Shown piece after piece: positions 4,554-62,506 of a stretch of 64,000 nt of DNA. The translations under genes and the position numbers were made by a program. The notes under the pieces are model-generated. The model was given only the letters and a program-made list of their open reading frames with translations. It was not told the origin of the DNA and did no database searches. Source of the DNA: Cinnamomum chago (Eukaryota; Streptophyta; Magnoliopsida; Laurales; Lauraceae); the NCBI GenBank assembly GCA_038049695.1, contig CP142458.1:58809501-58873500 (forward strand), given 5' to 3'. Position 1 is the stretch's first letter, and every line of letters starts with the position of its first letter.

Positions 4554-5002
4554 CATGACTCTGTCCTCTAAGGAAAAATGCAATATTTGGCTGATAATAT
4601 CATAAAAATAAAAAAAAATTAAATTATAAAATTATTTTTTTGTCATTATTTTTTGTCATTCTTTTCATTAAATTATTATGATATTATAAAAATATCCTAT
4701 CTTTAGTCATATTTATCACACCTGGCTAAAGGATATATGCCATTGTTGATATAGTAAGTCACCTTCAACAGTCACCTACCAGAACAACGAATGTTGATTA
4801 AATCAAAACAAAATGAAACTAAAGAAAATCAAAATGAAAGGTACATTGAAAAAACATGTAAAAACATATATAATAAAAACCTATACACTGTTATTTACAA
4901 AATAATGACCCGACATCAAATAGCATACTGAACCTATCATATACAAAAACTCCATACAACCCTTTATACAAAAACTCCATAGAACCCCTAACTATTCTCT
5001 CA
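4554..5002. other. AT-rich spacer, no gene seen
   Basis: Strongly AT-rich with runs of A and T. No reading frame or repeat of note was recognised. It probably includes the 3' side of the minus-strand Ulp1 remnant. Confidence 0.5.
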
Positions 5003-5657: not shown

Positions 5658-5887
5658 TAATAATGATAGAATATGTCACTAAGATTTGCATCTGATGATA
5701 TTCACTATACTCTCTAAGATTTGCATCTGATGATAGAATATGTAAATATTAGTTCCTAACAAAGTAATGTATCAATATCACGGAGTAACGTGTTATTAAA
5801 AAAAAAGAAAAAAAAACGACGTAATGTCTCAATAAAAAAATTTAATGCTTACGCCACTAATTAGCTTAATGTTGCAGCTAGAATTAC
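5658..5887. repeat. Possible intron between PMD and Ulp1 exons, with a small duplication
   Basis: A stretch reading GATTTGCATCTGATGATA appears twice around 5680-5740, along with two copies of ATTCACTATACTCTCTAAG (about 5617-5636 and 5700-5719), so the Ulp1 exon edge has been partly duplicated. Minus-strand splice signals border it (GTAATT at 5887-5882), so it may be an intron. Confidence 0.5.
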
Positions 5888-39165: not shown

Positions 39166-40537
39166 ACAAATTGGCTCAAATCAGAATATTTATTGAGATT
39201 TGTGAATTTAATGTTGAGATTAATCAAATTAGGGCTCGAATTTGATTTGGGCGCAATTAGACCATGTTTAGGGCCAAGAAGGGCCTATTTGTAAAATTGA
39301 AGAAGTATAAGGGGTTTTTCATAATTTAAAAAGTACGTTGATATTTGGCTCGTTGGGCAGAGAAAAAGTAATCATGAAACTTTTTTAAGCTTGTAGGGCC
39401 TTTTGGTGGCAACTAAACTGTAGCATCCCAGTTAGACTGCTTACTTGGTGTATGGGAGAGGGTCATATTTGGAAGTGCGTGTGAAATTGAGAATAAAAGG
39501 GTCTCAGACGGTCAGACCCTTGCTCTTTCTAGGTAAGCTCCAGAAAGTCGAGCTCAAAGCTAGAAAACCTACCTACCTACCTCCCTCCCTCTCTTCCGCT
39601 TGGTTTGCCTTTCTCCTTGCTCTTTCTAGGTAGGCTCTCTTCTCTCCCTTCCCTTCCTTCTTGTATAGGATTCCATTAGCTTCTTGGAATTGTTGCATGC
39701 AAGCCCTAATCCCTCTTTTATCTTGGGTTTTGCATGTAGATGCCTAGGTTGGCTTAGGAATAACTTAGGATTTGGAGGGAAAGCTTGTAGATGAGAGTTT
39801 TGGCTTAAGGCCTCGTTGGGTTTCAAAAGAACTCTCTAGTTTTCAACCAAAAGCAAGTAAACATCTTTAAATTACATTGCATGCATGTTTTTCTTTGTTG
39901 ATTCCTATTGATACTCAAATCTAGACACCCATTTCAAGCTCAAGTTCTATGTCTACAGAAACCCCAAAGCCCTAGATTCATAATAGGGTATGTTGCCTGG
40001 CCTTAAAAACGGCAATGTATGCCCAGAATGGCATCGACCTTGCTGGCCATGGCAATGGGAGACTTTCCCTCCAGGACCAAACTAGGCTCGGCCACCAGCT
40101 GAAAACCTTGCTTAGGTTCTTCGGCTAGCTGAGCAGAAGCTTCGGCTAACCTAACCGAAGACACCCTTGGGCTAACTGAAGTGTTGCTTCGGCAACTTTT
40201 CCAGAGGGCATCATTCTCAGTTCTGGGTCTTCAGCTAGCTGAGACACATTTTTGGCTAACAGAAGACACCCCCTTGACTAACCAAAGGTTTGCTTCGGCA
40301 GGCCTTACCAGAGAGCCTTATTTCTGGCTCAGAGCCTTCGGCTAGCCAAGAATACCCTTTGGCTAACCAAAGGCCTTCAGGTATCTCTTGATGGAGAGAC
40401 CCTAAACATGGATGGGGTATTGATGTAGATTGGGACCTTTGTCTTTGTTTAATGATGAATGAACATGTGACCTGCAGTAGGTGATGTTTGGGGCTTGACA
40501 TTTACCTAGGCCAAGGATATGATGTCGTAGGACTTTG
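39166..40537. other. Probable older LTR-like flank, no gene
   Basis: A TGTAGCATCCCAG stretch at 39420 resembles an LTR start and recurs as TGTAGCATCCTAAA at 59430, on the other side of the composite retroelement. From 40085 to 40400 an imperfect repeat of about 95-100 bp with CTTCGGCTAAC/CTTTGGCTAACC and CTTCGGCA motifs is present three times. The composite element inserted at 40537. Identity as LTR is inferred. Confidence 0.45.
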
Positions 40538-40793
40538 TGTCAATCCAGGCCCAATCCATTTTGGCCCATCAATTTTGGCCCATTTATTGTACCCATTTAT
40601 TGCTTTGTAATTAGTCAAAGTTGTTACTTAATTTTAGGATCTAAGATTTGTGATTGATTTGTAATTGATTGTAATTGATTGTAATTAGGGTATTAAGCCC
40701 TTATATATACATCAGTCGATCCAAGAATGGGATACGACATTCATCTCTCTTTCTCTTGTTCTGTGTTTCATCTCTCTCTCTCTAAAAGTGTCA
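40538..40793 (+). repeat. LTR1, 5' copy
   Basis: 256 bp, from TGTCAATCCAGGCCCAATCC to ...AAAAGTGTCA. It contains TTATATATACATCAG as likely TATA region and a CT-rich end. The initiator-Met-tRNA primer site TGGTATCAGAGC follows directly (40794-40805). Confidence 0.92.
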
Positions 40794-41666
40794 TGGTATC
40801 AGAGCAAGGTCGACCATCTTTGATCTTCTCCCAACTCATCTTCCATTCATTGGGAGCCTGTTTATGATCATCTGTGATCATCTTCTTCAGCTAGATCATA
40901 TCTGATCTTCCCTGATCATCTCAGATCAGGAGTGGCCCACCTGCGATCATCATCTGCTACTCAGCGGAAGCAGCCCATATTGGTCGCCTGGATTTATACA
41001 TATTTATGAAGATTTTCTCACGATTTATGGATCATCAGAGGTAGGCCATCTACCCTTTTTTTGTAGAAAATCAGTTTTGTCCATTTCTTTTCATCTCAGC
41101 CGTTCAAAAGTTTGGATTTGGATTCGTTCTACCTGAGACCACTTCCAGTAGTTGCCGAAATTTGCTGTGAACCCATCCCCATACTCAGATCTGTCAACAG
41201 ATCACTAGGTGGGGCCCACGTACACAACCCAACTCAAAAATTTGGGTCGTCAGGTACTGTTTAGTGCACAATTCTGTGCACAAGTTGCTGTATCAGCAAC
41301 TGTTCTATTGCTGGTTACTGCTGGTTCTTCCTACTGCTATTTATTACTGCTGTTGTTGCTGGTTTGTTCCTTACTACTGCTGATTGTTACTGCTGCGTCT
41401 ACTTGATCCAATCTGTTGATTCCTTTGCACTACTGCTGTGATAATTTGTTCGTTGTGTCTTTCTGGGTACTGTTTGTTGTGCACTTTTATTCTGTGCCTT
41501 CTGGGAATTGTTCTTGTCTACTGGTTGCTGTCTGCTGCAACACCTCCTGATTGTGTTCTTACAATCTTGACTGTGGTCTGATCCGTCTACGATTGGACTG
41601 CAACAGTACTGCTGCCCAATTCAGCACCCTGTCTTCCTTGTGTGTGCTTCTTACTAGACTTTCGTT

Positions 41667-44293
41667 ATGGAAAAACATGAGATTGCCCTGGTTCGCTTTG
41701 ATGGGACAAATTATACCTCATGGGCCTTCCAATTTCAAATTTACTTGGAAGGAAAAGAACTTTGGGCACACATTGATGGATCTGAACCTCAACCAGCGGA
41801 AGATGACAAGAAGATTTTAGCTTGGAAGACAAAGGATGCTAAAATCAAAACCTGGTTGCTGGGCTCTGTTGAGTCACATTTTATTCTCAACTTAAAACCC
41901 TGCAAAACTGCCCGTGAAATGTGGGACTATCTTAAGAAAATTTATCAACAAGGCAATGCTGCTCGCCAATTTCAATTTGAACTTGAAATCTCTCAATTCA
42001 CTCAAGGCACCCAAACTATTCAGGAGTATTACAATGGCTTCCGCCGCCTGTGGTCTGAATATGATGAGATTAAGTTTGCCACGGTACCTGCCGCACTTCT
42101 ACCGGAATTACTTCCATTACAGGAAAGTAGTCATCAGGATCAGCTCCTCATGAAACTTCGTTTGGAGTTTGAGACAGTTCGATCGAGCTTGATGAGCAGG
42201 GCTCCTCTTCCCCACTTGGATGCATGTCTTCAGGAACTTCTGCGGGAGGAACAGCGTCTCGCTACTAAAACTAATCTGGAACAACAACGCTCTGCGGAGG
42301 CTCCATTTGCCTATGCTGTGCCACAGCCAGACAACCTCCTCGGGACATCCGTAAAGTTCAGTGTCATAACTGCAAAAAATATGGTCACTATGCAAATCAA
42401 TGCAAGTCAAAAATTTGCAGATATTGTAAGGCCACTGGTCATGTTATTGAAGAATGTCGGAAGAAGGCTCGCAATTCAGCTTCCTGCGATTATGTGCAGT
42501 CCGGTCCTGGAACTTCCACTGTGTCATCTGCTCCTACTGCTTACACAGTGACTACTCCACCATATGCTTCATCTGACTTCAATGGTTCTCTGCCGTATGA
42601 TTCATCCTCACAGCCTGGTTCCTCATCACAATCTATGTCTCCTGCTCCTCTCACCCCTGATATGGTTAACCAAATGATCATCAATGCCTTAGCATCCATG
42701 AACATCGCAGGTACTGCTTCCTCTCTTTCCAATACCTGGTACTTAGATTCTGGTGCAAGTAACCATATGGCCTCATCACCCGCCACATTACAAAATGTTG
42801 TTCCTTACACTGGTCATCTCACTGTTCAAGCTGCCAACGGAGATCATCTCCCCATCACCTCTGTTGGTGATACCCCTGGCCCCTTACCCTTAACCAATGT
42901 TTTGGTTTCTCCTCCTCTTGCTACTAATTTGGTTTCTGTGGGACAACTTGTTGAAAATAATTACACTGTCTCCTTTTCTTCTTCTAGATGTGTTGTGCAG
43001 GACCAGGAGTCGGGGGAAGTGATCGCGAGGGGGCCTAAGCGTGGCAGACTTTTTCCGTTACCAATATCTTCTGTTATTGAGAATAATCCTTTACATCAGT
43101 TATTTTGTTTCTTCCTTCAGAATCATTCTCGTTTGTGGCATCATAGACTTGGTCATCCGAATGCTTCTACTATGTCTACATTATTTCAATCTGGATTAAA
43201 AAATAAACATGTTGCTTCTGCTTCTTTTGACTGTGATGCTTGTAAGTTAGGTAAGAGTAAAACTTTACCCTTTCCAACCTCTCACACACGGAGCACTGCA
43301 TGTTTTGACTTAATTCACAGTGATGTTTGGGGCATTGCTCCGACCCTTTCCCATAGTCATTTCAAGTATTTTGTCACATTCATTGATGACTACAGCAGAT
43401 TTACTTGGATTTATTTCTTACATTCGAAGTCTGATATTCTTAATGCATTTACATTTTTTGTTAAATATGTGGAAACCCAATTTTCTAAATGCATTAAAAC
43501 TTTGCGCTCAGACTCAGGGGGGGAGTATGTTTCCAAGGATTTTCAATCCTTTTTAACCAATAAAGAAATCATTTCTCAACGTACCTGTCCGTATACTCCA
43601 CAACAAAATGGAGTCGCAGAACGGAAAAACAGACATCTTCTTGATGTAACTAGAACTCTTCTAATTGAATCATCCGTTCCCCCTCGTTTTTGGACTGAAG
43701 CTCTCACAACGGCTGTCTATCTCATTAACCGCCTTCCATCACCTACCATTGCTCATTTCATGCCTCATTTTAAATTGTTTGGTCATCATCCTGTGTTTGA
43801 TCACCTACATACCTTTGGCTGTGTTTGCTTCGTTCATCTACCTCCCACCGAAAGAACGAAACTCACAGCACAATCTCGCAGGTGTGCTTTTTTGGGTTAT
43901 GCCACTAATCAAAAAGGCTTTGTTTGTTATGATCCCATTGGTCGTCGTATCAGGGTTTCTCGAAATGTTATTTTCTTTGAAAATCAATATTTCTTCCAAA
44001 CTCACATGGGATTGTCCTCCTCCCTCTTCCCCAGCTCTCTTACCCGGTTTTTCGGATCAAACCCCTGTTACTAGGTTTAATCCTGCTTTTGTATACCACC
44101 GACGGGAGAAACCTCCCACTGCAGATGGCCCTCCCCCTGATCCTCCACCGACAAATGGTTCCACGCCTACTCCTGCCTTACGTCGCTCCTCCAGAACTTC
44201 TAGACCGCCTGAGCAGTATGGCTTTACCCATACTTCTTTGATGACCACGCTATCTTCTATCTCTGTCCCAAGTTCTTATTTGCAGGCTGTCCA
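41667..44293 (+). pseudogene. Copia-1 gag-protease-integrase, lacking RT and RNase H
   Basis: An ATG at 41667 opens MEKHEIALVRFDGTNYTSW, a copia gag (UBN2 type). A one-base frame change near 42325 leads to two zinc knuckles (CHNCKKYGHYANQC at 42362 and CRYCKATGHVIEEC), the protease DSGASNHM (Asp codon 42745-42747), the integrase HHCC region (HHRLGH...CDACKLGK) and the DDE core (DLIHSDVWG, TLRSDSGGEY, PQQNGVAERKNRHLL). Near 44020 the frame changes again into the linker RRSSRTSRPPEQYG...SYLQAVHDT. There the gene stops at an inverted LTR1. The leader (40794-41666) has no gene. Reverse transcriptase is absent, so the element cannot move by itself. Confidence 0.92.
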
Positions 44294-44509
44294 TGACACT
44301 TTTAGAGAGAGAGAGATGAAACACAGAACAAGAGAAAGAGAGATGAATGTCGTATCCCATTCTTGGATCGACTGATGTAGATATATAAGGGCTTAATACC
44401 CTAATTACAATCAATTACAATCAATTACAAATCAATCACAAATCTTGGATCCTAAAATTAAGTAACAACTTTGACTAATTACAAAGCAATAAATGGGTAC
44501 AATAAATGG
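44294..44509 (-). repeat. LTR1, inverted internal copy, truncated
   Basis: Reverse complement of about 40578-40793, from TGACACTTTTAGAGAGAGAG (the LTR end) to ACCCATTTATTG reversed (…AATAAATGG). About 40 bases of the LTR start are missing. It joins copia-1 linker sequence on the left and mid-RT of copia-2 on the right. Confidence 0.92.
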
Positions 44510-45677
44510 ATGCAACCAGAGGGTTTCATTGCCGGTGGCCAAGAGAACATGGTCTGTAAGCTTAAGAAGTCTATTTATGGACTTATGCAAGCATCTAGAG
44601 CATGGAACATCAAGTTTAATCAGGCAGTCAAATCTTTTGGCTTTGATCAAAACATTGATGAACCATGTGTATAAGAAAGGGAGTGGAAACGCAGTTGCAT
44701 TTTTAGTCCTGTATGTGGATGACATATTACTCATTGGAAATGATGTTGGCATATTGTCGTCTACTAAGGTTTGGTTATCATCTCAATTTCAGATGAAGGA
44801 TTTGGGTGAGGCGAGCTATGTCTTAGGGATCAAGCTTTTGCGAGATCGCAAGAACAAGATGTTAGCCTTATCCCAATCTTCGTATATTGAGAAGATATTG
44901 GTCAAGTATAACATGCATGACTCCAAGAAGGGCTTGCTACCTTCTAGACATGGAGTACCACTATCTCGGAATCAATGTCCGAAAACACCTGAGGAGATAG
45001 ACAGCATGAGGAGAGTACCATATGCATCAGCTGTTGGAAGCCTCATGTATGCAATGTTGTGTACTAGACCAGATATCTGTTTTGCCGTTGGCATGGTTAG
45101 TAGATATCAATCAAACCCTGGACCTATGCACTGGACAGCTGTTAAGCATATATTCAAGTATCTTCGGAGAACGAAAGATTATATGCTAACCTACCGAGCA
45201 GATGATCTAACGCCACTGGCGTATACAGACTCTGATTTCCAGTCGGATGTAGATGCCAGAAAGTCTATCTCGGGATACGTCTTTACTCTATCAGGAGGGG
45301 CTATATCATGGAGAAGTGTCAAGCAAGATTGTACTGCTGATTCTACCATGGAAGCTGCGAAGGAAGCAGTATGGCTCAGAAAATTCCTATTGGAATTGGG
45401 AGTAGTTCCTGCAGTGCAAAAACCGATTGTCATGTACTGCGACAATACTGGTGCAGTAGCTAACTGCAAAGAGCCCAGGAATCACAAAAAAGGCAAGCAT
45501 ATTCAGAGAAAGTACCACTTGATCCGGGAATTCATCCTGGATGGAGAAATAGTGGTAGAGCAGATTGCCTCAGCAAATAACTTAGCTGACCCATTTACTA
45601 AGACTCTTACTGAGAAAGTGTTTACTTCACATGTTGAGTCTATGGGAGTTAGGTTAGGTCGTAGTGAACTTTAGTGC
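44510..45677 (+). pseudogene. Copia-2 RT C-terminus and RNase H (piece A)
   Basis: It begins abruptly inside RT at QPEGFIAGGQENM and KLKKSIYGLMQASRAWN. After a one-base frame change near 44670 it continues FLVLYVDDILLIGNDVG, QFQMKDLGEASYVLGIKL and RNase H (LTPLAYTDSDFQSD, MYCDNTGAVANC), ending GVRLGRSEL and TAG. The YVDD motif is intact. Eight codons are missing after STMEA compared with the copy at 51418-52362 (EYVAASEA), next to the conserved Glu. The polypurine tract GTGGGAGAT and LTR2 follow directly. Confidence 0.92.
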
Positions 45678-45688
45678 AAGTGGGAGAT

Positions 45689-47714
45689 TGTTGGGATTGG
45701 TGTATGCCCTAAAGCCCATTGACTGCACTCACATCTCTGTTACTGGATATTTATTGGTTATTTAATAGAATGACATCTTTCTCTTATTAATTGTGTATAT
45801 GTATGGTTGTGTAAGGCCCATTGTTTTCCAGTAAATGACTTGGGTGTGTAGTGACTGCACACAGAAAGGTCTAAGTCATGGACACTGGAAATAACTAATT
45901 TGTTCATAACTGAAAGGTGGAGTTGGGCACTTCATCTTGGTATAAGTTATAGTGAGAAACTCTCGTGTTCAGGGTGACTTACCTTAGTCATGGGAGGTCT
46001 TTCCCAGATATATCTCATTATTGCATGTGTCATGCATTGAACAGGACCATTAAAGGTGTGATCTCTAAAATAGTACTATCACTGAGAGAGATCAAGTCAC
46101 CTTATGCTACTGAGTGACCAGTGCTCTTAATCTTGAGCATATGTGGATGAACTGACGAAGTCGAGTTCTTGTACTTTAATTCACTATGGGTGAGATCCTG
46201 TTCATGGGTCAATAGCTCTGTATTTTGGGTGCTCGGGCTTGATTAGTTGGGACGTGCAAATGCAATATGGAATCTATGCCATTGGGTGATGGAATGATCG
46301 TCCCCTTAGAATTATCCGATTAATCATCAGAATCTAAGATCTTAGTATATGGATGTTCCATATGGATATTGAACTTGTGGGCCGCTCCCTGGATCAAGAG
46401 AATGATATCCGGATGATGATTAAGTCAAGGGTATGAAGTTATAAGTATAAGATGTAATCAAGAAGGTAGATAGTACATCAGTTAACCTACTTGATTATGG
46501 ATGTTACATAGAGGGGCATTGTGGTCATTGTATTTGGTAGGTCAAAGACAATCGTCAGTTTATGATGAGCTTAATTTGCAATTTAATATTTGTCCCTGGA
46601 GTGCAACCATAACTCTCTAGTGGAATGAGTTAAGGTTAAAATGATCCTAGTGTTGCTATGGGGTTAGCATGGACATTTTGGTCATTTTGGAAGCCAAGGG
46701 CAAATATGTCTTTTGGTCCCTTCTCTAGCCACTTTCCTAGATTGGCAAGGTTTCCTAAATTGTTTAATTGTGTGGAGAAATAATTTTTGAGTGTAAATTC
46801 AAATAGGCCCATGATGGCATACATGAATTACAACTCTAGATAAATTATTTGGTGCATGAGCCATAGTTTGTTTGGGCTAACCAATGTGGTCCCTAGTATG
46901 TGGGTCCCAAGTTTGTGTAGGTCCTATTACTTGGAAGGATTTCTCTTTGTGCAAGAATTCCTATATTTTATAGAGTTCCTAATTCTACTTGGACTCTAAA
47001 TAAAGAAGGAGGTGTTGGAAGTCCACATAGTAGTTGGTTTGTTTTTGGAAAGCTCCTCTTAGTTTCCTAGTTCTATAAGGAAACATCTTCAATAGGAATT
47101 CCTCTATATATATATGATTCTCCCCTCCCTTGGGCGTGCAACACAGAGAGAGAAAGAAAGAAGGAGAAAAATCCTCCCTTGGGCGTGCAAGGGTTTGGAA
47201 ACATTGAGAGGAGCCTCCCATAGAAAACGTCCAGCCCACTTTGGACGTCCTTTGCACAAGAAAAGGATCCTGGCTGATTGCATCTTCTATTCTTGAAGAA
47301 AGACCACATCAGATCTGATATTTTCGCATAAGATCAAGGAAAAACAATAAGAGAGAAACCTAGTAAGTTCCCACCAACACTAGCCAATCAGATTTGGAGA
47401 AAGAGGAATAGAGGAGAAGACTAGAAGAGAAACCTGCTGCAGAAATTCCAGCAAGGTGTGCTGAAAGTTGCAGCCTACAGATCTGATCTTAAAGTTCAGA
47501 AATCAGAGGTTTTTCAACCCAAGTACATCAGGTATATCTTCTCCATTGTATCTTCTTTGATTACACACACGTTGATCATAATTGCATGGTGTTTGTGTGC
47601 GATTTCCATGGCTGGTTTACTTTCTATATTCGATCCTAGTTAGAAGTTTTAAAATTCCAGCCTCAGAACTCTTCGTTTCATCAAGAGTTCAGATCTGAAT
47701 CGCGCATTCTTTCA
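45689..47714 (+). repeat. LTR2, plus orientation
   Basis: About 2.0 kb, from TGTTGGGATTGGTGTATGCC (after GTGGGAGAT) to ...CATTCTTTCA. TGGTATCAGAGCC, the Met-tRNA primer site, begins at 47716. It serves as 3' LTR for the RT/RH piece before it and as 5' LTR for the leader and gag after it. A possible TATA box is TATATATATGA near 47107. Confidence 0.88.
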
Positions 47715-49536
47715 ATGGTATCAGAGCCACACCATGATTAATCATGATCCCATGTTGTGTGGATATCTATCCTAGATTAATTAAGGGCATGGTGGCGCCC
47801 TTTAGGATGTTTTTTACTGCATGATAGGCGTGCAGGAATTTTTCCAGGTTGCTGGAATTTTTCCAGAATTCTGTTTGGTGCATGTTTGGCGTGCAGGAAT
47901 TTTTTCCAAATTGCTGGAATAATTTCAGAATGTTGTATAGTGCTGTACAATGCACTATGAATGCACTAATCTTTTTGGTTGCAGCCATATAATTGCATCC
48001 TTGATGGTTCGCATGTATGTGTGTGGATTTGGATGTTTTTTTTTAATTAGTTGGATAGTGTACGATTGCGCGTTTAGCAATCATAGGAGGTTGTAATTTT
48101 TTTCTTGTTTTTATTCCAACTAGTCTTGATGTAAGCTTTCTTGAAAAGCATAGGGATCTCCAATGTAATTTTTTGGTTTTTGCTTTTCATGGGTTTGCTT
48201 GTATAAATCTGATTTATTGTAACAAGCAAGAAAAGGAACGTTTCAAGCAAGGAAGGTTGCAACAGACCGGATTCCATGGTGGTAGAGGCAACGAAGGTGT
48301 CCTAGTGCGAAAAGGACTCTTAACCAAGTATCCTAGTTGGATTAGGATTCCTAGTCGGATAAGGTTTCCTAGTTGGATAAGGATTTGAAGTCCGAAGAGC
48401 AGGGAGCCATCAAGGATTGCATCTTTTATATAATTGCTTTTATTGCTATGTTTATCACCTAGTAACATGGCCACCACTAGGTTTTTAAAATTGGGTTCTT
48501 TCTATATTAGATCAGATTTGTTTGGCTGAATGTTTTTAAATGGAACTTAGACCAGCACCCTTCTTTGTCTAAGATTTAAAATTGGTTAGGGTTTAGTTTA
48601 TCTTGGTACCCTAAGTTTCCAAAAGAGGTCAAACTAAAATCTAATATGTTGCTACCTTAGTGGGCCCATAACCCACTGGTCCCAAGACCTTTACTCAATA
48701 TGTTTTAAAGCAAAGGTTATTTATTTTTTGAGATGACTTAAGCAATTGAGTCATGAAAATTGTTAACTAAGTTTGCTAGATTTAAACAAGGTTTGAGTAA
48801 TGATGCTAAGGTCAAAAGTGTTTTTCAAAACCCTAGTGTTAAATAATCAAGTGGGAGAGGGGTTTGGAAAAACCCCACGGCCTTCCATTTTCGGTTCATG
48901 CTATCTCAATGGAGTGTTGGTGGGAGCGGCCATCCCTTCGGTGGAGTTCTTTACTAAAGATCGCTTCGATAGGTTAGTGAGTGAACTAATGTGAATATTC
49001 GTAATGAGGTGTTAGTTGGAGCGGCCATCCCTTCGGTGGAGTTCTTTACTAAAGATCACTTCTATAGAATGTCAATGAAGTGTTGGTGGGAGCGGCCATC
49101 CCTTCGGTGGAGCTTTTTACTAAGGTTCACTTCAAGAGTTGATTGAAGTCACTTCCCATCGGAGGACTCAAGTCATAGACATTTTGGGAAATTTCATAAG
49201 AGATGGTAATACACTTGACATAAGACGGTAATGACCTCTCCCTAGAAGTTAGAGTTGTTTGTCATATGAGGCCAAACCAATCAGTGATTGGACTATCACA
49301 GGATATGCGTATCCAGACTGTGATGATCCAAATAAGCAGACCTTAACTCAACGTGACTGTAGGCTCGGCCATCCCTTCGATGGAGGGTCTATGAGGAGGT
49401 TGAGACACTGATACATTATGATTGGGGTTAAATAATGTAAAAAGTCTTGTGCATGTTTTTCTTTTTACTACAAGCACCATATGCATATTACATATATACT
49501 GCCTGTCTAATTATAACCTGTTATATATCCAGAGAG
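47715..49536 (+). other. Copia-2 long 5' leader (piece B) with repeated motif
   Basis: 1.8 kb without a gene, between primer site and gag. GGAGCGGCCATCCCTTCGG and the following GGAGTTCTTTACTAAAGATC occur three times (about 48925, 49018 and 49088), with a shorter GCTCGGCCATCCCTTCGATG at 49363. Near 47825-47940 a GTGCAGGAATTTTTTCCA-type unit is present twice. Confidence 0.85.
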
Positions 49537-50313
49537 ATGGGGAAGGATTCTTTTAGCCCGTTGATGAGTATTCTGCGTGAGAACAAATTGACTGGCCCAA
49601 ATTACGTAGACTGGAAAAGAAACCTTAACATAGTACTCACTGCTGAGGAGTACAAGTATGTTTTGTCGGAACCCTGTCCTACGATTGATGATCATTCTAC
49701 AGATGACCAGCAAGAGGCTGAAAGGAAATGGAAAAAGGCGAATAGCATGGCCAAATGCTACATGCTTGCTTCCATGTCCAACGTGTTGCAAACACAGCAT
49801 GAGCAAATGGACACAGCTTCTGATATCATGTTGTCCTTGTCTGAGATGTTCGCAAACAAAAGCAGGCCAGCTAGGCAAGCTGCTTTAAGGACAATCATGA
49901 ATACTAGGATGGCTGAGGGAACACCTGTCAGAGAGCACATGCTCAAAATGATGGATTGTTTCAATGAAGCTGAGATCCTAGGGGCTGAGATTGATGCAGG
50001 GAGTCAGACTGATATGATTCTCGAAACTCTGCCGGAGTCTTTCAACCAGTTCAAGCTCAACTTCAACATGAGCAAGTTGGACATGACTCTCTCTGAGTTA
50101 ATGAAAGAACTCCAGGCAGCAGAGGCCATCATGAAGCCTAAAGGCCAAGCTCACTTTTCCCAGTCTTCCTCTAAACTGAACCCGAAAGGTAAAAAGTTCA
50201 AGAAGAAGCAGGGTAAGGGAAAATGACAGAAAAAGGGCAATGCTGGAAAGAATGACAAAGGTACAGGTGAAAAGCCCAAAGGGAAATGCTTCAAGTGCGG
50301 CCTCAAAGGTCAC
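49537..50313 (+). pseudogene. Copia-2 gag (piece B), stop and truncation
   Basis: An ATG at 49537 opens MGKDSFSPLMSILRENKLTG, the gag of copia-2. It continues to KFKKKQGKGK, where GGA has become TGA (50224-50226) compared with the minus-strand copy. It ends in the zinc knuckle CFKCGLKGH at 50313, where an inverted LTR2 starts. The CAC at 50311-50313 is common to both sides of the joint. Confidence 0.92.
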
Positions 50314-51403
50314 ATATCATCTAATTAAATTAGGAAACCATGCCAATATAGGAAAGTGACTAGAAGAGGGACCAAAAGACATATTTACCCTTGGCTCCCA
50401 AAATGACCAAAATGTCCATGCTAACCCCATAGCAACACTAGGATCATTTTAACCTTAACTCATTCCACTAGAGAGTTATGGTTGCACTCCAGGGACAAAT
50501 ATTAAATTGCAAATAAAGCTCATCATAAACTGACGATTGTCTTTGACCTACCAAGTACAATGACCACAATGCCCCTCTATGTAACATCCATAATCAAGTA
50601 GGTTAACCGATGTACTATCTACCTTCTTGATTACATCTCATCCTTAGAACTTCATACCCTTGACTTAATCATCATCCGGATATCATTCTCTTGATCCAGG
50701 GAGCGACCCACAAGTTCAATATCCATATGGAACATCCATATACTAAGATCTTAGATTCTGATGATTAATCGGATAATTCTAAGGGGACGATCATTCCATC
50801 ACACGATGGCATAGATTCCATATTGCATTTGCACGTCCCAACTAATCAAGCCCGAGCACCCAAAACACAGAGCTGTTGACCCATGAAAAAGATCTCACCC
50901 AATAGTGAATTAAAGCACAAGAACTTGACTTCGTCAGTTCATCCACAAATGCTCAAGATTAAGAGCACTGGTCACTCAGTAGCAAGAGGTGACTTGATCT
51001 CTCTCTGTGATAGTACTATTTTTAGAGATCACACCTTTAATGGTCCTGTTCAATGCATGACACATGCACTAATGAGATATATCCGGGAAAGACCTCCCGT
51101 GACTAAGGTAAGTCACCCTGAACACAGGAGAGTTTCTCACTACAACTTATACCAAGATGAAGTGCCCAACTCCACCTCTCAGTTGTGAACAAATTAGTTA
51201 TTTCCAGTGTCCATGACTTAGACCTTTCTGTGTGCAGTCACTACACACCCAAGTCATTTACTAGAAAACAATGGGCCTTACACAACCATACATATACACA
51301 AGTAATAAGAGAAAGATGTCATTCTATTAAATAACCAATAAATATCCAGTAACAGAGATGTGAGTGCAGTCAGTGGGCTTTAGGGCATACACCAATCCCA
51401 ACA
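50311..51403 (-). repeat. LTR2, minus orientation, truncated (3' LTR of copy C)
   Basis: On the minus strand it starts TGTTGGGATTGG at 51403, after the polypurine tract of copy C, and breaks off after about 1.1 kb at 50311. It matches 58107-59171 nearly base for base, with a 23-bp deletion (near 58220) and a 2-bp difference (near 58318) in the other copy. A 101-codon open frame here is repeated identically in the other LTR and is not a gene. Confidence 0.9.
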
Positions 51404-51417
51404 ATCTCCCACTTGCA

Positions 51418-54400
51418 CTAAAGATCACTACGACCTAACCTAACTCCCATAGACTCAACATGTGAAGTAAACACTTTCTCAGTAAGAGTCTTAGTAAATG
51501 GGTCAGCTAAGTTATTTGCTGAGGCAATCTGCTCTACCACTATTTCTCCATCCTGGATGAATTCCCGGATCAAGTGGTACTTTCTTTGAATATGCTTGCC
51601 TTTTTTGTGATTCCTGGGCTCTTTGCAGTTAGCTACTGCACCAGTATTGTCGCAGTACATGACAATCGGTTTTTGCACTGCAGGAACTACTCCCAATTCC
51701 AATAGGAATTTTCTGAGCCATACTGCTTCCTTCGCAGCTTCCGATGCCGCCACATACTCTGCCTCCATGGTAGAATCAACAGTACAATCTTGCTTGACAC
51801 TTCTCCATGATATAGCCCCTCCTGATAGAGTAAAGACGTATCCCGAGGTAGACTTTCTGGCATCTACATCCGACTGGAAATCAGAGTCTGTATACGCCAG
51901 TGGTGTTAGATCATCTGCTCGGTAGGTTAGCATATAATCTTTCGTTCTCCGAAGATACTTGAATATATGCTTAACAGCTGTCCAGTGCATAGGTCCAAGG
52001 TTTGATTGATATCTACTAACCATGCCAACGGCAAAGCAGATATCTGGTCTAGTACACAACATTGCATACATGAGGCTTCCAACAGCTGATGCATTTGGTA
52101 CTCTCCTCATGTTGTCTATCTCCTCAGGTGTTTTCGGACATTGATTCCGAGATAGTGGTACTCCATGTCTAGAAGGTAGCAAGCCCTTCTTGGAGTCATG
52201 CATGTTATACTTGACCAATATCTTCTCAATATACGAAGATTGGGATAAGGCTAACATCTTGTTCTTGCGATCTCGCAAAAGCTTGATCCCTAAGACATAG
52301 CTCGCCTCACCCAAATCCTTCATCTGAAATTGAGATGATAACCAAACCTTAGCAGAGGACAATATGCCAACATCATTTCCAATATGTCATCCACATATAG
52401 GACTAAAAATGCAACTGTGTTTCCACTCCCTTTCTTATACACACATGGTTCATCAATGTTTTGATCAAAACCAAAAGATTTGACTGCCTGATTAAACTTG
52501 ATGTTCCATGCCCTAGATGCTTGCTTAAGTCCATAAATGGACTTTTTAAGTTTACAGACCATGTTCTCTTGGCCACCAGCAATGAATCCCTCTGGTTGCA
52601 TCATATAGATGCATTCGTCAAGACTTCCATTTAGAAAAGCTGTCTTGACATCCATCTGCCATATCTCGTAGTCATAATGACATGCGATGGCTAAGAGAAT
52701 TCTAATGGATTTAAGCATAGCCACTGGTGAAAAGGTTTCCTCATAATCGATACCCTCTTTCTGAGTATATCCTTTCGCCACCAGTCTTGCTTTGAAGGTT
52801 TCAACCTTCCCATCCACTCCTCTCTTTCTCTTGTAGATCCACTTGCACCCTATGGGTTTGATCCCTTCAGGTGCAACCACAAGTTCACAGACTTGATTGG
52901 AATACAGAGAATCCAATTCAGATTTCATCGCTTGCTGCCACATGTCAGCATCTATATCCGTTATTGCTGCATCGTAACTAGTAGGATCCTTAACCAGATC
53001 CTCAGAGTCTGTCATAAAGGACACTCCTAGATATCTATCAGGTGGTCTAGAAATTCTCCCACTACGACGAGGCTCCGGAGTGTTAAAAGGAATGTTTTAA
53101 TTATCTACAGTCTCAGGATCTGGCACAGATGTTGCAGGAGTTTCTAAAAGAATCTCCTCAAGTGTTTCTTTACAACCAAGCTCTTGGTGCATCATGCAAT
53201 CATCCTCCAAGTATCTAGCATGAGTGCTGATAAGCACCTTTTGCTCCTTTGGATGATAAAAGATGCCTCCTCTCGTTCCCTTAGGATACCCAATGAAGTA
53301 GCACATTTCCGATCTGGGTTCTAGCTTGGTAGCTTTATCATTCAGTACATAGGCTGGACAACCCCAAATGTGGATATGTCTTAAACTGGGTTTTCGACCT
53401 GTCCACATTTTTCGAGGTGTCCTAGGTACTGATTTAGAAGGTACCAGATTCAAAATGTATGCTGCTGCTTCTAGGGCATATCCCCAAAAAGATATGGGTA
53501 GGGTTGCATGACTCATCATGGACCTTACCATATCAAGAAGGGTACGGTTTCTTCTCTCTACTACACCATTTTGCTGGGGTGTACCCGGTGTAGACAACTG
53601 AGACACAATCCCATGTTGTGTGAGGTATTCCTTGAACTCACCCAGGAGGTACTCGCCACCTCGATCAGATCGAAGAGCTTTGATATGTTTCCCTAGTTGT
53701 AACTCTACCTCAGCCTTGAATTGTTTGAACTTATCAAACGCTTCAGACTTGCGTCGCATTAGGTACACATATCCATACCTAGAGTAATCATCAGTGAAGG
53801 TGATGAAATACTCATAACCTCCTCGAGCTAGTTTGTTCATAGGACCACACACATCAGTGTGAACCAATTCTAACAACTCCTTTGACCTCAGTCCCTTTCC
53901 AGAGAATGACCTTTTGGTCATCTTTCCCATGAGACAAGATTCACACTGAGGTAAAGGTTCGAGATCTAATGAGCTCAAAAGCCCATCCTCTACCAACCTC
54001 TGAATTCGTTTTAGGTTAATATGACCCAAACGTAAGTGCCAAAGATAAGTGTCATTGGTCGAAGATACCTTCCTCTTAAGGGAAGATGAGCTTTCTAGTT
54101 GTACATTATGCAGTGTGGGAGCAATAGGATATATATAAAATAAGTTGTCATGCATTCTACCGGAACATATAATATTTCCATTTCTACTGATATCAACACC
54201 AGAATGGAAAGAAACTGAATAATGAAATTCAATAAGTCTGGAAACTGAAATTAAATTCTTCCTTATGTCCGGAACATAGATAACATTATTTAAAATTAAT
54301 ATCCTATCATGCGGAAAAAGTAAAGTAACAGCTCCCACTGCAACAGCCCAAATCTTTGCTCCATTTCCAACTCTAAGGTCAAACTCCCCTTTCTCAAGCT

Positions 54401-55342
54401 TTTTCATTATCTGAAACCCCTGCAATGAATTGCAGATATGATTAGTGGCACCAGAGTCTACTATCCACGAATCAGTAGAATCAACCACATGACAGATTTC
54501 AATGTAGTAGGAAAGAGATATACCTTTCTTATCTGAGCCTAGGAGCTTGGGACAATCTTTCTTCCAGTGACCTTTGAGGCCGCACTTGAAGCATTTCCCT
54601 TTGGGCTTTTCACCTGAACCTTTATCCTTCTTCCCAGCATTGCCCTTTTTCTGTCCTTTTCCCTTACCCTGCTTCTTCTTGAACTTTTTCCCTTTCGGGT
54701 TCAGTTTAGAGGAAGACTGAGAAAAGTGAGCTTGGCCTTTAGGCTTCATGATGGCCTCTGCCGCCTGGAGTTCTTTCATTAACTCAGAGGGAGTCATGTC
54801 CATCTTGCTCATGTTGAAGTTGAGCTTGAACTGGTTGAAAGACTCCGGCAGAGTTTCGAGAATCATATCAGTCTGACTCCCTGCATCAATCTCAGCCCCT
54901 AGGATCTCAGCTTCATTGAAACAATCCATCATTTTGAGCATGTGCTCTCTGACAGGTGTTCCCTCAACCATCCTAGTATTCATGATTGTCCTTAAAGCAG
55001 CTTGCCTAGCTGGCCTGCTTTTGTCTGCGACCATCTCAGACAAAGACAACATGATATCAGAAGCTGTGTCCATTTGCTCATGCTGTGTTTGCAACACGTT
55101 GGACATGGAAGCAAGCATGTAGCATTTGGCCATGCTATTCGCCTTTTTCCATTTCCTTTCAGCCTCTTGCTGGTCATCTGTAGAATGATCATCAATCGTA
55201 GGACAGGGTTCCGACAAAACATACTTGTACTCCTCAGCGGTGAGTACTATGTTAAGGTTTCTTTTCCAGTCTACGTAATTTGGGCCAGTCAATTTGTTCT
55301 CACGCAGAATACTCATCAACGGGCTAAAAGAATCCTTCCCCA
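51418..55342 (-). pseudogene. Copia-2 gag-pol (copy C), nearly complete, two lesions
   Basis: From ATG at 55342: gag (MGKDSFSPLMSIL...), zinc knuckle CFKCGLKGHWKKDC, protease WIVDSGATNHIC, GAG-pre-integrase LWHLRLGH...CESCLMGK, integrase (LVHTDVCGPM, ALRSDRGGEY, TPQQNGVVERRNRTLL), RT (CKWIYKRKRG, QMDVKTAFLNG, YVDDIL) and RNase H (TDSDFQSD, MEAEYVAASEAAKE, MYCDNTGAVA), ending GVRLGRSDL at 51418. One stop (TAA at 53099-53097, same frame on both sides) lies in the integrase-RT linker, and 7 bases are missing just after YVDDIL (near 52385) compared with piece A. Order PR-INT-RT-RH is that of Ty1/copia. Otherwise open, so recently active. Confidence 0.95.
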
Positions 55343-57196
55343 TCTCTCTGGATATATAACAGGTTATAATTAGACAGGCAGTATATATGTAACATGTATA
55401 TGGTGCTTGTAATAAAAGGAAAAACATGCACAAGACTTTTTACATTATTTAACCCTAATTATAATGTATCAGTGTCTCAACCTCCTCATAGACCCTCCAT
55501 CGAAGGGATGGCCGAATCTATAGTCTCGTTGAGTAAAGCCTCGCTTATTTGGATTATCACTATCTGGATTTAGCATATCCAGCGACAGTCCAATCACTGA
55601 TTGGTTTGGCCTCATATGACAAATAACACTAACTCCTATGGAGAGGTTATTACCGTCTTGTGTCAAGTGTGTTACCATCTCTTATGAAATTTCCCAGAAT
55701 GTCTATGACTTGAGTCCTCCGATGGGAAGTGACTTCAATCAACTCTTGAAGTGAACCTTAGTAAAAAGCTCCACCGAAGGGATGGCCGCTCCCACCAACA
55801 CTTCATTGACATTCTATAGAAGTGATCTTTAGTAAAGAACTCCACCAAAGGGATGGCCGCTCCCATTAACACCTCATTACGAATATTCACATTAGTTCAC
55901 CCACTAACCCATCGAAGCGATCTTTAGTAAAGAACTCCACCGAAGGGATGGCCGCTCCCACCAACACTCCATTGAGATAGCATGAACCGAAAATGGAAGG
56001 CCGTGGGGTTTTTCCAAACCCCTCTCCCACTTGATTATTTAACACTAGGGTTTTGAAAAACTCTTTTGATCTTTACATCGTTACTCAAACCTTGTTTAAA
56101 TCTAGCAAACTTAGTTAACAATTTTCATGACTTAATTTCTTAAGTCATCTCAAAAAAATAACCTTTGCTTTAAAAACATATTGAGTAAAGATCTTGGGAC
56201 CAATGGGTTATGGGCCCACTAAGGTAGCAACATATTAGATTTTAGTTTGGCCTCTTTTGGAAACTTAGGGTACCAAGATAAACTAAACCCTAACCAATTT
56301 TAAATCTTATACAAAGAAGGGTGCTGGTCTAAGTTCCATTTAAAAACATTCAGCCAAACAAATCTGATCTAATATAGAAAGAACCCAATTTTAAAACCTA
56401 GTGGTGGCCATGTTACTAGGTGAAGATCATAGCAATTATAGCAATTATATAAAGCAATAAATATAATGCAATCCTTGATGGCTCCTTGCTCTTAGGACTC
56501 CAAATCCTAATCGAACTAGGACATCAAAAATAGATCTCCTCTTGCACCAAGAAGCCTCGTCTCCTCTATCACCAAGGATCCCCTTTCACTTGCAACCATG
56601 CAATCTTTGAAGCTTTCTTCTCTTGCTTGATGATATAAAAATAAATTTACATACAAGCAAACCCATGAAAAACAAAACCAAAAATTACATTGGATATACC
56701 TATGCTTTTCAAGAAAGCTTACATCAAGACTAGTTGGAATAAAAACAAGGAAAAATTACAACTTCCTATGATTGCTAAACGCGCAATCGTACACTTTCCA
56801 ACTAATTAAAAAACACCCAAATCCATATAAACATTCATACGAACCATCAAGGATGCATATATGGCTGCATACAAAGAGGTTAGTGCATTCATAGTGCTTT
56901 GTACAGCACTATATAGTATCCTGGAAAAATTCCAGCAACCTGGAAAAATTCCTGCACACCTATCATGCAGTAAACAGTATCCTGGAAAAATTCCAGCAAC
57001 CTGGAAACAATTCCTGCACTCCTATCATGCAGTAAACAGTATCCTGGAAAAATTCCAGCAACCTGGAAACAATTCCTGCACTCCTATCATGCAGTAAATA
57101 GTATCTAGAAGGGTGCCACCATGCCCTTAACTAAGATAGGATTAATATTAACACATCATGGGGTCATGATTTCACATGGAGAGGCTCTGATACCAC
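55343..57196 (-). other. Copia-2 leader (copy C), minus
   Basis: The counterpart of 47715-49536. The repeated CCGAAGGGATGGCCGCTCCC motif is present three times at 55772-55960, with a fourth shorter form at 55501. The primer site, inverted (GGCTCTGATACCA), is at 57183-57195. A 61-62-bp minisatellite lies at 56915-57099. Confidence 0.88.
56915..57099. repeat. 61-62-bp minisatellite in the copia-2 leader, three copies
   Basis: Units starting AGTATCCTGGAAAAATTCCA at 56915, 56976 and 57038, with a further start at 57100. Each contains the near-palindrome TGGAAAAATTCCA and CTATCATGCAGTAAA. The plus-strand leader (piece B) has only about two diverged units, so the array differs between copies. Confidence 0.9.
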
Positions 57197-59171
57197 TGAA
57201 AGTTAATGCGTATTGAATCTGAAATCACATGACAGAGGACGTCCATGGCTGATCTAGTTTTCAAATCACTGAAACTAATCTGATCTGGCAGCGTGAAACA
57301 GCCATGAATAATGCATAATAACTCCATGAAATCATGATCAACATGTGTTATAATGAAAGGAGATGAAAGAGGACTTATACCTTGATGATATGAAGGCCTC
57401 AAATCTCTGAAAAGAAAACTCCAAAGATCTGATCTCAGCCTGCAGTCAGCAATGCAAGTTGCAGGAATTTTCTGCAGCAGCTTTTCCTTTGATCTTCTCT
57501 TCTATTCCACAACCCAATCTGATTGGCTTTGATTGTGGGATCAAACTATGGATTCCTAGATGGGTTTTCTGAACTATACTTTGTGGAAAATACCCAGACC
57601 TGATTTCCTCTCTTCAATGAAGGAAGAAGAAGAAAACCATGGGCGTCAATCTCCTTCTCACTTGGGCAGCCAATGGAGTTCCAAGTTGTTGCACACCTAG
57701 GGTTAATTCCTATCACCTTGTTTCACATGTTGCACGCCTAGGGTAGTGTGTAATATATTTATAAAGTTCACATTCCTTTAAGAGTTATCTCTAATAGGAA
57801 TGACCATCCCATAAAATAAGCAACCAGCCACCTTAGTAGTGCAACACTTTCTAATTAAAGATACTAAAATTTAGTAAACTTTAATTATAGGAATTCTTAC
57901 CCAAAGAGGAATTCTACCTTCCAAGTAAAGATACCTAGTTAAACTTGGAAACCTCACACAAGGGGCTCCCCTTATGGCTGGCCCACAAGATAGATAAACA
58001 CACCATGGCCCACAAGTTAATATTTTAGCTAGAGTTAAATTCATGTATGCCATCAAAAGCCTATTTGAATTTAAACTCAAAAATATTTTTCCACAAAATT
58101 AATTCAACCACATATCATCTAATTAAATTAGGAAACCATGCCAATATAGGAAAGTGACTAGAAGAGGGACCAAAAGACATATTTACCCTTGGCTCCCAAA
58201 ATGACCAAAATGTCCATGCTAATTTAACCTTAACTCATTCCACTAGAGAGTTATGGTTGCACTCCAGGGACAAATATTAAATTGCAAATAAAGCTCATCA
58301 TAAACTGACGATTGTCTGACCTACCAAGTACAATGACCACAATGCCCCTCTATGTAACATCCATAATCAAGTAGGTTAACCGATGTACTATCTACCTTCT
58401 TGATTACATCTCATCCTTAGAACTTCATACCCTTGACTTAATCATCATCCGGATATCATTCTCTTGATCCAGGGAGCGACCCACAAGTTCAATATCCATA
58501 TGGAACATCCATATACTAAGATCTTAGATTCTGATGATTAATCGGATAATTCTAAGGGGACGATCATTCCATCACACGATGGCATAGATTCCATATTGCA
58601 TTTGCACGTCCCAACTAATCAAGCCCGAGCACCCAAAACACAGAGCTGTTGACCCATGAAAAAGATCTCACCCAATAGTGAATTAAAGCACAAGAACTTG
58701 ACTTCGTCAGTTCATCCACAAATGCTCAAGATTAAGAGCACTGGTCACTCAGTAGCAAGAGGTGACTTGATCTCTCTCTGTGATAGTACTATTTTTAGAG
58801 ATCACACCTTTAATGGTCCTGTTCAATGCATGACACATGCACTAATGAGATATATCCGGGAAAGACCTCCCGTGACTAAGGTAAGTCACCCTGAACACAG
58901 GAGAGTTTCTCACTACAACTTATACCAAGATGAAGTGCCCAACTCCACCTCTCAGTTGTGAACAAATTAGTTATTTCCAGTGTCCATGACTTAGACCTTT
59001 CTGTGTGCAGTCACTACACACCCAAGTCATTTACTAGAAAACAATGGGCCTTACACAACCATACATATACACAAGTAATAAGAGAAAGATGTCATTCTAT
59101 TAAATAACCAATAAATATCCAGTAACAGAGATGTGAGTGCAGTCAGTGGGCTTTAGGGCATACACCAATCC
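57197..59171 (-). repeat. LTR2, minus orientation (5' LTR of copy C)
   Basis: About 1.97 kb. On the minus strand it runs from GGATTGGTGTATGCCC to ...CATTAACTTTCA at 57197, next to the primer site. Its first five bases (TGTTG) are absent, because it is fused to LTR1 at CCAATCC (59165-59171). Confidence 0.9.
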
Positions 59172-59397
59172 ATTTTGGCCCATCCATTTTGGCCCATTTA
59201 TTGTACCCATTTATTGCTTTGTAATTAGTCAAAGTTGTTACTTAATTTTAGGATCTAAGATTTGTGATTGATTTGTAATTGATTGTAATTAGGGTATTAA
59301 GCCCTTATATATACATCAGTCGATCCAAGAATGGGATACGACATTCATCTCTCTTTCTCTTGTTCTGTGTTTCATCTCTCTCTCTCTAAAAGTGTCA
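59165..59397 (+). repeat. LTR1, right outer copy
   Basis: Matches 40551-40793, except for 11 bases fewer in a TTGATTGTAA repeat and a few substitutions. It ends AAAAGTGTCA at 59397, followed by the target duplication CTTTG. The first 13 LTR bases are missing. Confidence 0.92.
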
Positions 59398-59402
59398 CTT
59401 TG

Positions 59403-60716: not shown

Positions 60717-62506
60717 GAGATAATTAGCGAAAGGTCCCTCATATAGGACTTGTAAGGCCTCCGGTCCATCAACTTTTCCTCTAAGGCTTGTAATCCATGC
60801 AACTTGAATATATTTCGGTGAGAGGTCCCTAGACACGTCAGCTCATTGAGAGAGGTCCCTAGACACGCCACCTCATAAATTTTAATGACTGATTTGCCCT
60901 TTCAACTGATTAGGCATAAAATTTTAAAATTTTAAATTTTAAATCTTCCATTCTCCCTATTCTTCTTCTTCAATCGTAGTTCCTATATGGCTACAAAGGA
61001 GTTGGTTTACACCGACTTGGACTCTTGATGGTTCTGGTTGATACCGGAGAAGACAGTGAATAGGATCCTGGCCTGGCAAGTGCTGGGCTCGTTGCTTGCA
61101 GCAAAAAAATGTAAGGGTGATTCCAGTTTCCTATTACAGAACCGAACAGATCGGAGAAGATGATCTGGAACCTGGGTTCGTGACCCGGGTGAAGGCCGAT
61201 TTTGCCACCGTTGATGGAGAAGACAGCTCGGAGTTATTGGAGAAGACAGCCTAGAACCTGGGTTCGTGACCCGTTGATAGAGAAGACAGGCCGCGCCATG
61301 CCATCGCCAAAATCAAGGAAGAAGGCGAACGGAAGATGGCTTTTGTGTTTCTGATTCCAGAACGAAGAAGAAGAAGCAAGTAGGCCTGGGCTTTGTAGCA
61401 ATTCCGAGTTGGTTCCAGAACCTGGCCCGTTCCAGAAGTCCATCCCCATTCCAGTCAAAGTCAAATTTAATTGAGTTTTGTATTTTTTGTCAAATTTATT
61501 TGAGTTTTGGACAAATCTATCTGAGTTTTGGCTATTTATCTGACTTCTAGAACAAATTTATTCGAGTTCTGGACAAATTTATCTGACTTCTGGACAAATC
61601 TATTTGAGTTTTTGGCTATTCATCTGACATCTGAAACAAATTTATCTGAGTTCTAGATAAATTTATCTGAGTTCTGGACAAATCTATCCAAGTTTTTGGC
61701 TATTTATTTGAGTTCTAGAACAAATCTATTAGAGTTATAAACAAATCTATCTAAGTTTTTGGCAAATTTATTTGAGTTTTTGAAAAAAATAGGTGAGTCC
61801 AATTTATCTTCATTTTAAAAAAATTTAACTGAGTTTTTGAACGAATCTTTCTGTGTTTTTGGCAAATTTATTTGTATTTTCTTAGATCTATTTGTGTGTT
61901 TGAAATTTATTTGTATTTTTTGAAATAAATTTAACTGAGTTTTTAACAAAAAGACTCGAGTTTTTTGCCACATTATTCGCTAATTTGGAATTTTGGGTTA
62001 TATTAATATTGGCAAATGTATTTGCGTTTTTTTAAATTTATTTGCGTTTTTTAATTTTATTTACGTCTAATGAAATTTATTTGAGTCTTCTGAAATTTAT
62101 TTATATTTTTTTGGAATTTATTTGGATCTTTTGAAATATATTTTGGATCTTTTGAAATTTATTTATATCTTTTGAAATCTATTTGTGTCTTTTTAAATTT
62201 ATCTGAGTTCTTTTGAAATTTATTTGCATTTTTTTAAATTTATTTGCGTTATTTTGAAATTTATTTGTGTGCTTTTAGAATTTATTTGAAAATTTTATTA
62301 TTGAGATTTCATTAATCGTGGCCATTAAATGGTAGTTGACTATTATTAATGGAATATCCCACCAATCATGGGATATGATTTAAAGAAATTGTAAATTAGA
62401 CATATCAGGTATGGGAATGTGTTAGAGGACCTTTAGCTGCATGACTTTTTTTTGTGAACTATTTGCAACAAAGTAATACTTTGAGGGACCTCTCGCCGAA
62501 TCCCCC
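60717..62506. mobile_element. TIR element with internal minisatellite
   Basis: The left end GAGATAATTAGCGAAAGG and the right end, inverted, GGGGGATTCGGCGAGAGG are both followed by TCCCTCA. Motif GAGAGGTCCCTAGACACG occurs twice near the left end. The interior has two copies of AACCTGGGTTCGTGACCCG (about 61169 and 61255). No transposase frame. The target duplication is unclear (TATTTTTTA / TATATTTTA). Superfamily undetermined; MULE-like is possible. Confidence 0.6.
61480..62290. repeat. T-rich degenerate minisatellite
   Basis: About 800 bp made of some 25-30 diverged units of 20-30 bp like AAATTTATTTGAGTTCTGGA, drifting into AAATTTATTTGCGTTTTTT towards the right. Lies inside the TIR element. 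Confidence 0.85.

Follow-up and report, generated by a model that had tools for sequence, protein, structure and literature searches.

A two-family copia block bounded by one pair of LTR1 ends and one target-site duplication in Cinnamomum chago

Introduction

Sabot and Schulman (2007, PMC1950507) interpreted the complex long terminal repeat (LTR) retrotransposons of grasses as products of template switching, in which a chimeric complementary DNA (cDNA) had integrated once. For the other sources cited here, our statements refer to selected passages. Combinations involving ddm1 in Arabidopsis gave truncated two-LTR insertions, two of them with a clear duplication (PMC10462705), and pairwise recombination within one family is frequent in the same plant, recombination between families not appearing in the passages concerned (PMC5668417). 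In yeast, signs of end joining or autointegration were not found in Ty circles (PMC4751563, in the passages used), while nearly 4,000 of ~33,000 insertions of all kinds contained two to four pieces (PMC10802722, a preprint). Here we analyze a block of two copia families, termed copia-1 (with LTR1) and copia-2 (with LTR2), in a 64,000-bp stretch of the Cinnamomum chago genome (assembly GCA_038049695.1, contig CP142458.1; C8:58809501-58873500), hereafter the window, to which all positions refer unless another contig is named. A preliminary description had proposed that template switching or autointegration among co-packaged cDNAs made a chimeric DNA that was then integrated once.

Results

That the block integrated once, through LTR1 ends, has good support: the duplication around it is exactly 5 bp, a paralogous target carries one CTTTG, and the outer LTR1 copies are nearly identical. 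The block, its joints and its flanks are composed as follows, with the basis of each assignment in brackets.

40533-40537, no strand: left 5-bp target-site duplication, CTTTG (repeat search; single CTTTG at the C9 paralogous empty site)
40538-40793, plus strand: left LTR1 of copia-1, complete, TGTC...GTCA, 256 bp (repeat search, LTR1 alignment)
40794-44293, plus strand: copia-1 interior with primer-binding site (from 40794), 5' untranslated region (5'UTR), gag and integrase, ending at the start of the reverse transcriptase (RT) region (frames, Pfam, relatives)
44291-44293, no strand: joint 1, overlap CCA, with the inverted LTR1 beginning at its exact 3' terminus at 44294 (donor alignment)
44294-44509, minus strand: inverted LTR1 piece, LTR1 positions 256 to 43 (repeat search, LTR1 alignment)
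44509-44509, no strand: joint 2, overlap G, 1 bp (donor alignment)
44510-45688, plus strand: copia-2 piece A, C-terminal part of RT plus the segment leading to the LTR, which is called RNase H from its position (Pfam, alignment)
45689-47714, plus strand: piece A, complete LTR2 of ~2.03 kb between pol and gag (primer-binding site position, comparison)
47716-50313, plus strand: piece A, primer-binding site, 5'UTR and a gag truncated near the zinc knuckle (frames, Pfam)
50311-50313, no strand: joint 3, overlap CAC (donor alignment)
50311-51403, minus strand: copia-2 piece B, truncated 3' LTR2 with the first ~1,093 of ~1,980 bp kept (repeat search, alignment)
51404-57196, minus strand: piece B, 5'UTR, gag, integrase and RT (Pfam), RNase H by position (frames, Pfam)
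57197-59171, minus strand: piece B, 5' LTR2, complete except for its initial TGTTG, 5 bp (LTR2 alignment)
59165-59171, no strand: joint 4, overlap CCAATCC (7 bp), with B ending 5 bp from its terminus (donor alignment)
59165-59397, plus strand: right LTR1 without its first 13 bp, ending GTCA (repeat search, LTR1 alignment)
59398-59402, no strand: right 5-bp target-site duplication, CTTTG (repeat search; paralogous empty site)

The block (40538-59397; 18,860 bp) begins with TG and ends with CA, LTR1-like direct repeats form both of its outer ends, and the CTTTG direct repeat around the whole is exactly 5 bp, in agreement with the preliminary description. Ordinary copia-1 elements have perfect 5-bp duplications in 14 of the 17 two-LTR copies examined. 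Paralogues of the target were sought by comparing 1 kb of the left flank and 1 kb of the right flank with the 1.06-Gb genome and aligning the hits to the joined window flanks. The flanks occurred side by side, ~58-62 bp apart, at three other places (C9:49941803-49943049, C10:15915980-15916545 and C7:38622225-38622682), all of which lack the insert and align continuously across the insertion point. The C9 paralogue has one CTTTG at that point, and the C10 and C7 paralogues differ from those five bases at two and one positions, respectively. Because these targets lack the insert and the C9 target has one CTTTG, the ends of the block show a single insertion, which comprises the whole block and one of the two CTTTG copies. 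All three paralogues carry 34-36 extra bases relative to the window, but these sit ~32 bp left of the insertion point and thus not at the joint. At 70-82% identity to the window flanks the targets are paralogues and not alleles, and so provide no dating.

Of the two direct LTR1 copies reported as outer ends, the left is complete and the right lacks 13 bp; a third, inverted copy between copia-1 and copia-2 material had gone unnamed. The left and right copies are 95.5% identical, and 10 of their 11 differences belong to one 10-bp repeat indel, leaving one substitution in 233 sites; we consequently dropped raw identity as a measure of their divergence and counted substitutions only. In our reading of the alignment, the same repeat block differs within 10 of 17 other copia-1 pairs, and since repeat numbers vary in this way despite few substitutions, percent identity misdates these elements. 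More generally, copia-1 copies L002-L020 have two variable LTR1 repeat blocks, one of head units with ATTTTGG or CCAGG and one of TTGTAATTGAT. The inverted piece differs from the left LTR1 by one substitution and a 2-bp insertion over 214 sites, with L002_5 and L011_3 equally close. A two-unit LTR1 head was found only in the left copy, the right copy and L006_5 among 39 LTR1 sequences, the inverted piece being without that region. The head CCAATCCATTTTGG was considered as proof that the outer copies are sister LTRs, but this was weakened because its first seven bases may come from B.

The copia-1 interior has lost its RT, as had been noted. A Pfam scan, which covered seven window frames, identified gag and integrase but not RT in the two frames of copia-1, and the reading frame of the interior is broken near 42494-42551. 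The 5' part of L003, an ordinary copia-1, matches 40794-44284 at 98.8%, while nothing in the window matches the remainder of that element (L003 3835-5367), which extends to the 3' LTR. In L003 and L009, the two copia-1 relatives read, the natural frame continues into RT, as judged by the YVDD motif of that domain. Since both relatives run into RT, its loss is local to this block, and on these two copies we reject a copia-1 family without RT.

Copia-2 material in both orientations makes up most of the interior, again as previously described, with A on the plus and B on the minus strand. Pfam identified gag and part of RT in A, and in B it identified integrase as well as gag and RT; RNase H was not listed in any scanned window frame, and the label is given by position. 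A has the order pol-LTR-gag with no LTR at either end, while B is short by 5 bp on one side and by ~890 bp on the opposite side. The extent of LTR2 required revision: primer-binding site positions give ~2.0 kb, and the ~1.1 kb repeated within the window, which we rejected as the full length, reflects the truncation of the 3' LTR2 of B at 50311. An LTR2 start at TGTATGCC was likewise dropped in favour of TGTTGGG; going by this start, copia-2 is presumably akin to Angela/Tork. A and B diverge by 1.9% in the stretch from RT to the LTR, 3.8% in 5'UTR-gag and 41% in the second half of the LTR, a pattern that places them in different copia-2 subfamilies on alignment.

At joint 1 (44293/44294), the inverted LTR1 starts with TGACAC, the complement of GTGTCA, within a 3-bp ambiguity. 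Ordinary copia-1 continues here as ...GCTGTCCAACAAG in 11 of 16 copies, with one base altered in one further copy and four copies not located by that search. The microhomologies reported at 59165-59171 (CCAATCC) and 50311-50313 (CAC) proved to be common to both donors at their joints, and two further overlaps, CCA at 44291-44293 and G at 44509, can be added to them. The preliminary description that inner joints lack TG...CA ends was not fully right, given that joint 1 falls on an exact LTR1 terminus and B stops only 5 bp short of its own. In 200,000 simulated random joins of the same pieces, overlaps summed over four joints averaged 2.9 bp, compared to the observed 14 bp (3, 1, 3 and 7 bp), and sets of four reached at least 14 bp in a fraction of 0.000245, so the observed overlaps exceed chance; single overlaps of at least 7 bp occurred in 0.00056 of random joins. 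Within copia-1, CCAATCC was found in the LTR1 head only (two of four copies checked), which may be why the end of B met LTR1 there.

We also searched the genome for the joints, using patterns of 31-35 bases and allowing up to three mismatches, a check that the preliminary description had suggested. Each of the four patterns matched once, at the window's own position, with 0 control hits, which rules out the joints as those of a repeated chimeric family. No inner piece, alone or together with its neighbour, was found to be flanked by a direct repeat of at least 4 bp, as expected from the earlier report of no inner target duplications, though a TCCAT repeat around all three pieces together qualifies that report (see Discussion).

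Divergence dating, also suggested beforehand, showed both LTR pairs to be young. The B LTR2 pair has no substitutions in 1,063 sites (upper 95% bound 0.28% divergence) alongside 2-bp and 23-bp indels, and does not differ detectably from the outer LTR1 pair (1/233 vs. 0/1063, Fisher P = 0.18), so that one age may fit both. Pooled, the pairs date to ~30,000-60,000 years at 6.5e-9 and 1.3e-8 substitutions per site per year, with a 95% range of ~750 to 330,000. Among the other elements, 17 copia-1 pairs have 0-9 substitutions in 216-247 sites, where the counts of 9 (L006) and 5 (L003) are probably inflated by alignment of the head, and two copia-2 pairs have 16 in 1,999 and 26 in 1,990. Private mutations numbered 17 in 3,487 sites for copia-1 and, relative to 6-8 other copies, 36 in 5,043 sites for the interior of B. 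We rejected singletons as a sign that copia-1 is older than B, as B has 36 of them and no LTR differences; such counts therefore mostly predate reverse transcription.

Family searches scored the best 40 candidates, such that the nearest copies are those among the copies compared and a closer source may exist. On this basis, the nearest relative of the copia-1 part differs by 0.9%, the nearest to A are L021 in the 5'UTR (0.8%) and a C6 copy in the second LTR half (2.1%), and the nearest to B are L030 across the interior (1.5-1.9%) and, for portions of the LTR, L029 and L031 (0.9%). The pol-LTR-gag order of A recurs at two copia-2 loci. One is a tandem array with shared LTRs at C4:61455842-61478800 (L026, L027 and L028), with three LTR2 starts in 28 kb, units of 7,842-7,844 bp that are 99.7-99.85% identical, and a continuation beyond this interval. 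The other is a permuted gag-pol-LTR-gag copy at C6:58070834-58079387 (L025 and L022) with one LTR and a 742-bp terminal overlap at 98.8% identity; no 5-bp duplication was found at its ends, and because it is longer than one unit it is not simply an opened circle. These arrangements support a circle or concatemer as a candidate source of A, and a chromosomal tandem would fit equally well. Three copia-2 matches at C9:6705797-6727402, with exact 8,551-bp spacing and equal scores, probably represent a further tandem array. The last unit of the C4 array is cut in integrase and joined to the U5 end of LTR2 with a 4-bp overlap.

Elsewhere in the window, open frames at 529-7530 encode a MuDR transposase DNA-binding domain, a putative plant transposon protein (Transposase_32) and a plant mobile domain. 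Inverted repeat arms at 29482-30846 and 32531-33753 (88-92% identical) lie within 29482-36169, a region that also holds another inverted segment at 36086-36169 and, at 33747-33948, a tandem copy of 103 bp that is perfect. Short tandem repeats occur at 61491-62289, ~2 kb right of the block.

Discussion

The unique joints, the microhomology, the lack of a duplication around any single piece and the identical B LTRs are most simply read as one young joining event for the interior. Our leading explanation, offered tentatively and as somewhat short of probable, is microhomology joining of several free cDNAs, followed by one integration through LTR1 ends. Two copia families would have been making cDNA in the same recent period, and free DNA ends would have been joined by microhomology into one linear molecule. 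Its components would be a copia-1 cDNA broken off where RT begins, one LTR1 end of another copia-1 molecule in inverted orientation, A as part of a copia-2 circle or concatemer, B as a nearly complete linear copia-2 cDNA in reverse, and a copia-1 LTR at the right end. Copia-1 integrase would then have inserted this 18.9-kb molecule once, producing the 5-bp CTTTG duplication; the insertion is attributed to this integrase because both outer ends are LTR1 termini. That copia-1 integrase inserted preassembled DNA ~3.5 times the length of its own 5.5-kb element, most of it from another family, is a possibility about which we are somewhat doubtful. We infer that all joints came from one event, that joining preceded integration and that the pieces were free cDNA, and likewise the joining enzyme. 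The position of joint 1 on an LTR1 terminus and the end of B 5 bp from its own are expected if free cDNA ends were joined, and DNA end joining fits two ends at or near natural cDNA termini at least as well as template switching, which becomes one of several joining mechanisms.

Several points weigh against this explanation. The data do not separate joining before integration from capture of the same pieces into a resident copia-1, as both predict the same structure and the ages do not distinguish them; the single LTR1-ended integration of the preliminary description stands, while its view that the DNA was chimeric beforehand goes further than the data show. The left and right LTR1 look, by their shared head, like sister LTRs of one element, which capture directly predicts. 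Joints 1-3 taken alone overlap by only 1-3 bp (simulated P = 0.02), co-packaging is not expected since copia-1 and copia-2 are different families, and no near-identical source for any piece was found among the copies compared. A TCCAT direct repeat (44290-44294 and 59169-59173), one of many offsets tested, surrounds the three inner pieces together; read as a target duplication, it would mean that the inner block arrived later. In ordinary copia-1, 1.5 kb separates the two sides of this repeat. Because they are non-adjacent there and many offsets were tried, we set aside a target duplication and take the repeat as chance, though it is possibly a trace of later insertion into an already shortened copia-1.

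The nearest rival, which we consider less likely, is that a copia-1 residing at CTTTG suffered a break losing ~1.5 kb (from RT to LTR1 position 13) and that microhomology repair captured free copia-1 and copia-2 DNA, namely the inverted LTR1 end, A and B, as filler. In addition to the resemblance of the outer LTRs to sisters, the inner pieces without duplications of their own and the short overlaps at their joints are what end joining during break repair would leave, the RT segment missing here is present in the two relatives read, and the restriction of CCAATCC to the LTR1 head (in two of four copies) is where the end of B would anneal. Yeast breaks are known to capture DNA fragments that include Ty cDNA (PMC10802722). 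Capture would nevertheless involve ~14.9 kb in three pieces, which is large compared to the nuclear mitochondrial insertions of 22-492 bp measured in that study, although mitochondrial DNA >10 kb is said there to insert rarely; moreover, an age difference between copia-1 and B was not shown (Fisher P = 0.18) and the hint from private mutations failed. Stepwise nesting, in which integrase added an inverted copia-1, a tandem A and then B to an initial copia-1 and deletions or slippage at joints 2, 3 and 4 erased ends and duplications, appears improbable. It would account for the exact LTR1 terminus at joint 1, slippage between CCAATCC repeats a few bases apart could have formed joint 4 after B inserted beside the LTR1 head, and nesting is common in plants (PMC11899658). 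It would, however, take about seven events (about three insertions, three deletions and a tandem) within the short time allowed by the identical B LTRs. The inner pieces have neither the intact termini nor the target duplications of nested insertions, lacking direct repeats of at least 4 bp singly or as neighbouring pairs, and nothing in the window matches the absent copia-1 segment. The block structure is real. Inverted copia-2 arms of two kb (44509-46758 and 50330-52602) are hard to assemble, but an artefact stitching separate loci together is very improbable given the perfect duplication at the outer ends with a paralogous empty site, the microhomology and single genome match of each joint, and the location of the window inside a 72-Mb contig.

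If joining came first, a plant LTR retrotransposon integrase inserted an 18.9-kb molecule mostly of another family, which bears on the joining of cDNA, circles and concatemers in the nucleus and on how retrotransposons come to carry foreign DNA. Such integrases would then carry foreign extrachromosomal DNA in any order and orientation, given two matching flanking LTR ends, and chimeras between families would be a route for mobilising other DNA. If the interior was captured later, the block is a very large, multi-piece cDNA capture.

Features of the block can be found separately in several known systems. An LTR terminus joined in inverted orientation to an internal site, as in Ty autointegration products (in passages of PMC4751563), is present at joint 1 within the 3-bp ambiguity; those products are circles of one element, and the matching second LTR end, on the other strand and 5 bp away, is missing here, since no other LTR1 terminus adjoins joint 1 within the block. 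Yeast break capture similarly combines two to four fragments at one break with microhomology at the break ends, but the captured pieces are short and the passages of that report (PMC10802722) describe no LTR-ended insert with a target duplication. Fused and truncated extrachromosomal copia DNA is shared with the extrachromosomal circular DNA and insertions of Arabidopsis ddm1 combinations (2023, passages of PMC10462705), where a circle fuses EVD with a gene, ~0.7 kb of each, rather than two families in 18.9 kb. The order of A, the C4 array and probably the C9 array of copia-2 resemble tandem LTR-retrotransposon arrays as described in passages of PMC11899658 (2025), whereas the whole block is not an alternation of one family's LTRs and interiors with an LTR at both ends, the pol-LTR-gag order occurring in A alone. 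Among the titles and abstract beginnings listed for open-licence PMC papers, none described a block of two LTR retrotransposon families enclosed by a single LTR pair and a single duplication. The block is like the complexes of Sabot and Schulman (PMC1950507) in that it is longer than one element, has one 5-bp duplication around the whole, contains more than two LTRs and has highly similar outer LTRs (1/233 substitutions and the 10-bp repeat indel, with the right LTR1 minus 13 bp). Those complexes consist of two elements of one family joined head to tail through R, with two complete cores and a shared third LTR, while the present block combines two families and one inverted pair, and has truncated cores (copia-1 without RT, A partial, and B an inverted member of the other family) and microhomology joints away from R. 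The kind of block is already known from template-switch complexes and tandem LTR elements; its two-family, inverted layout is new.

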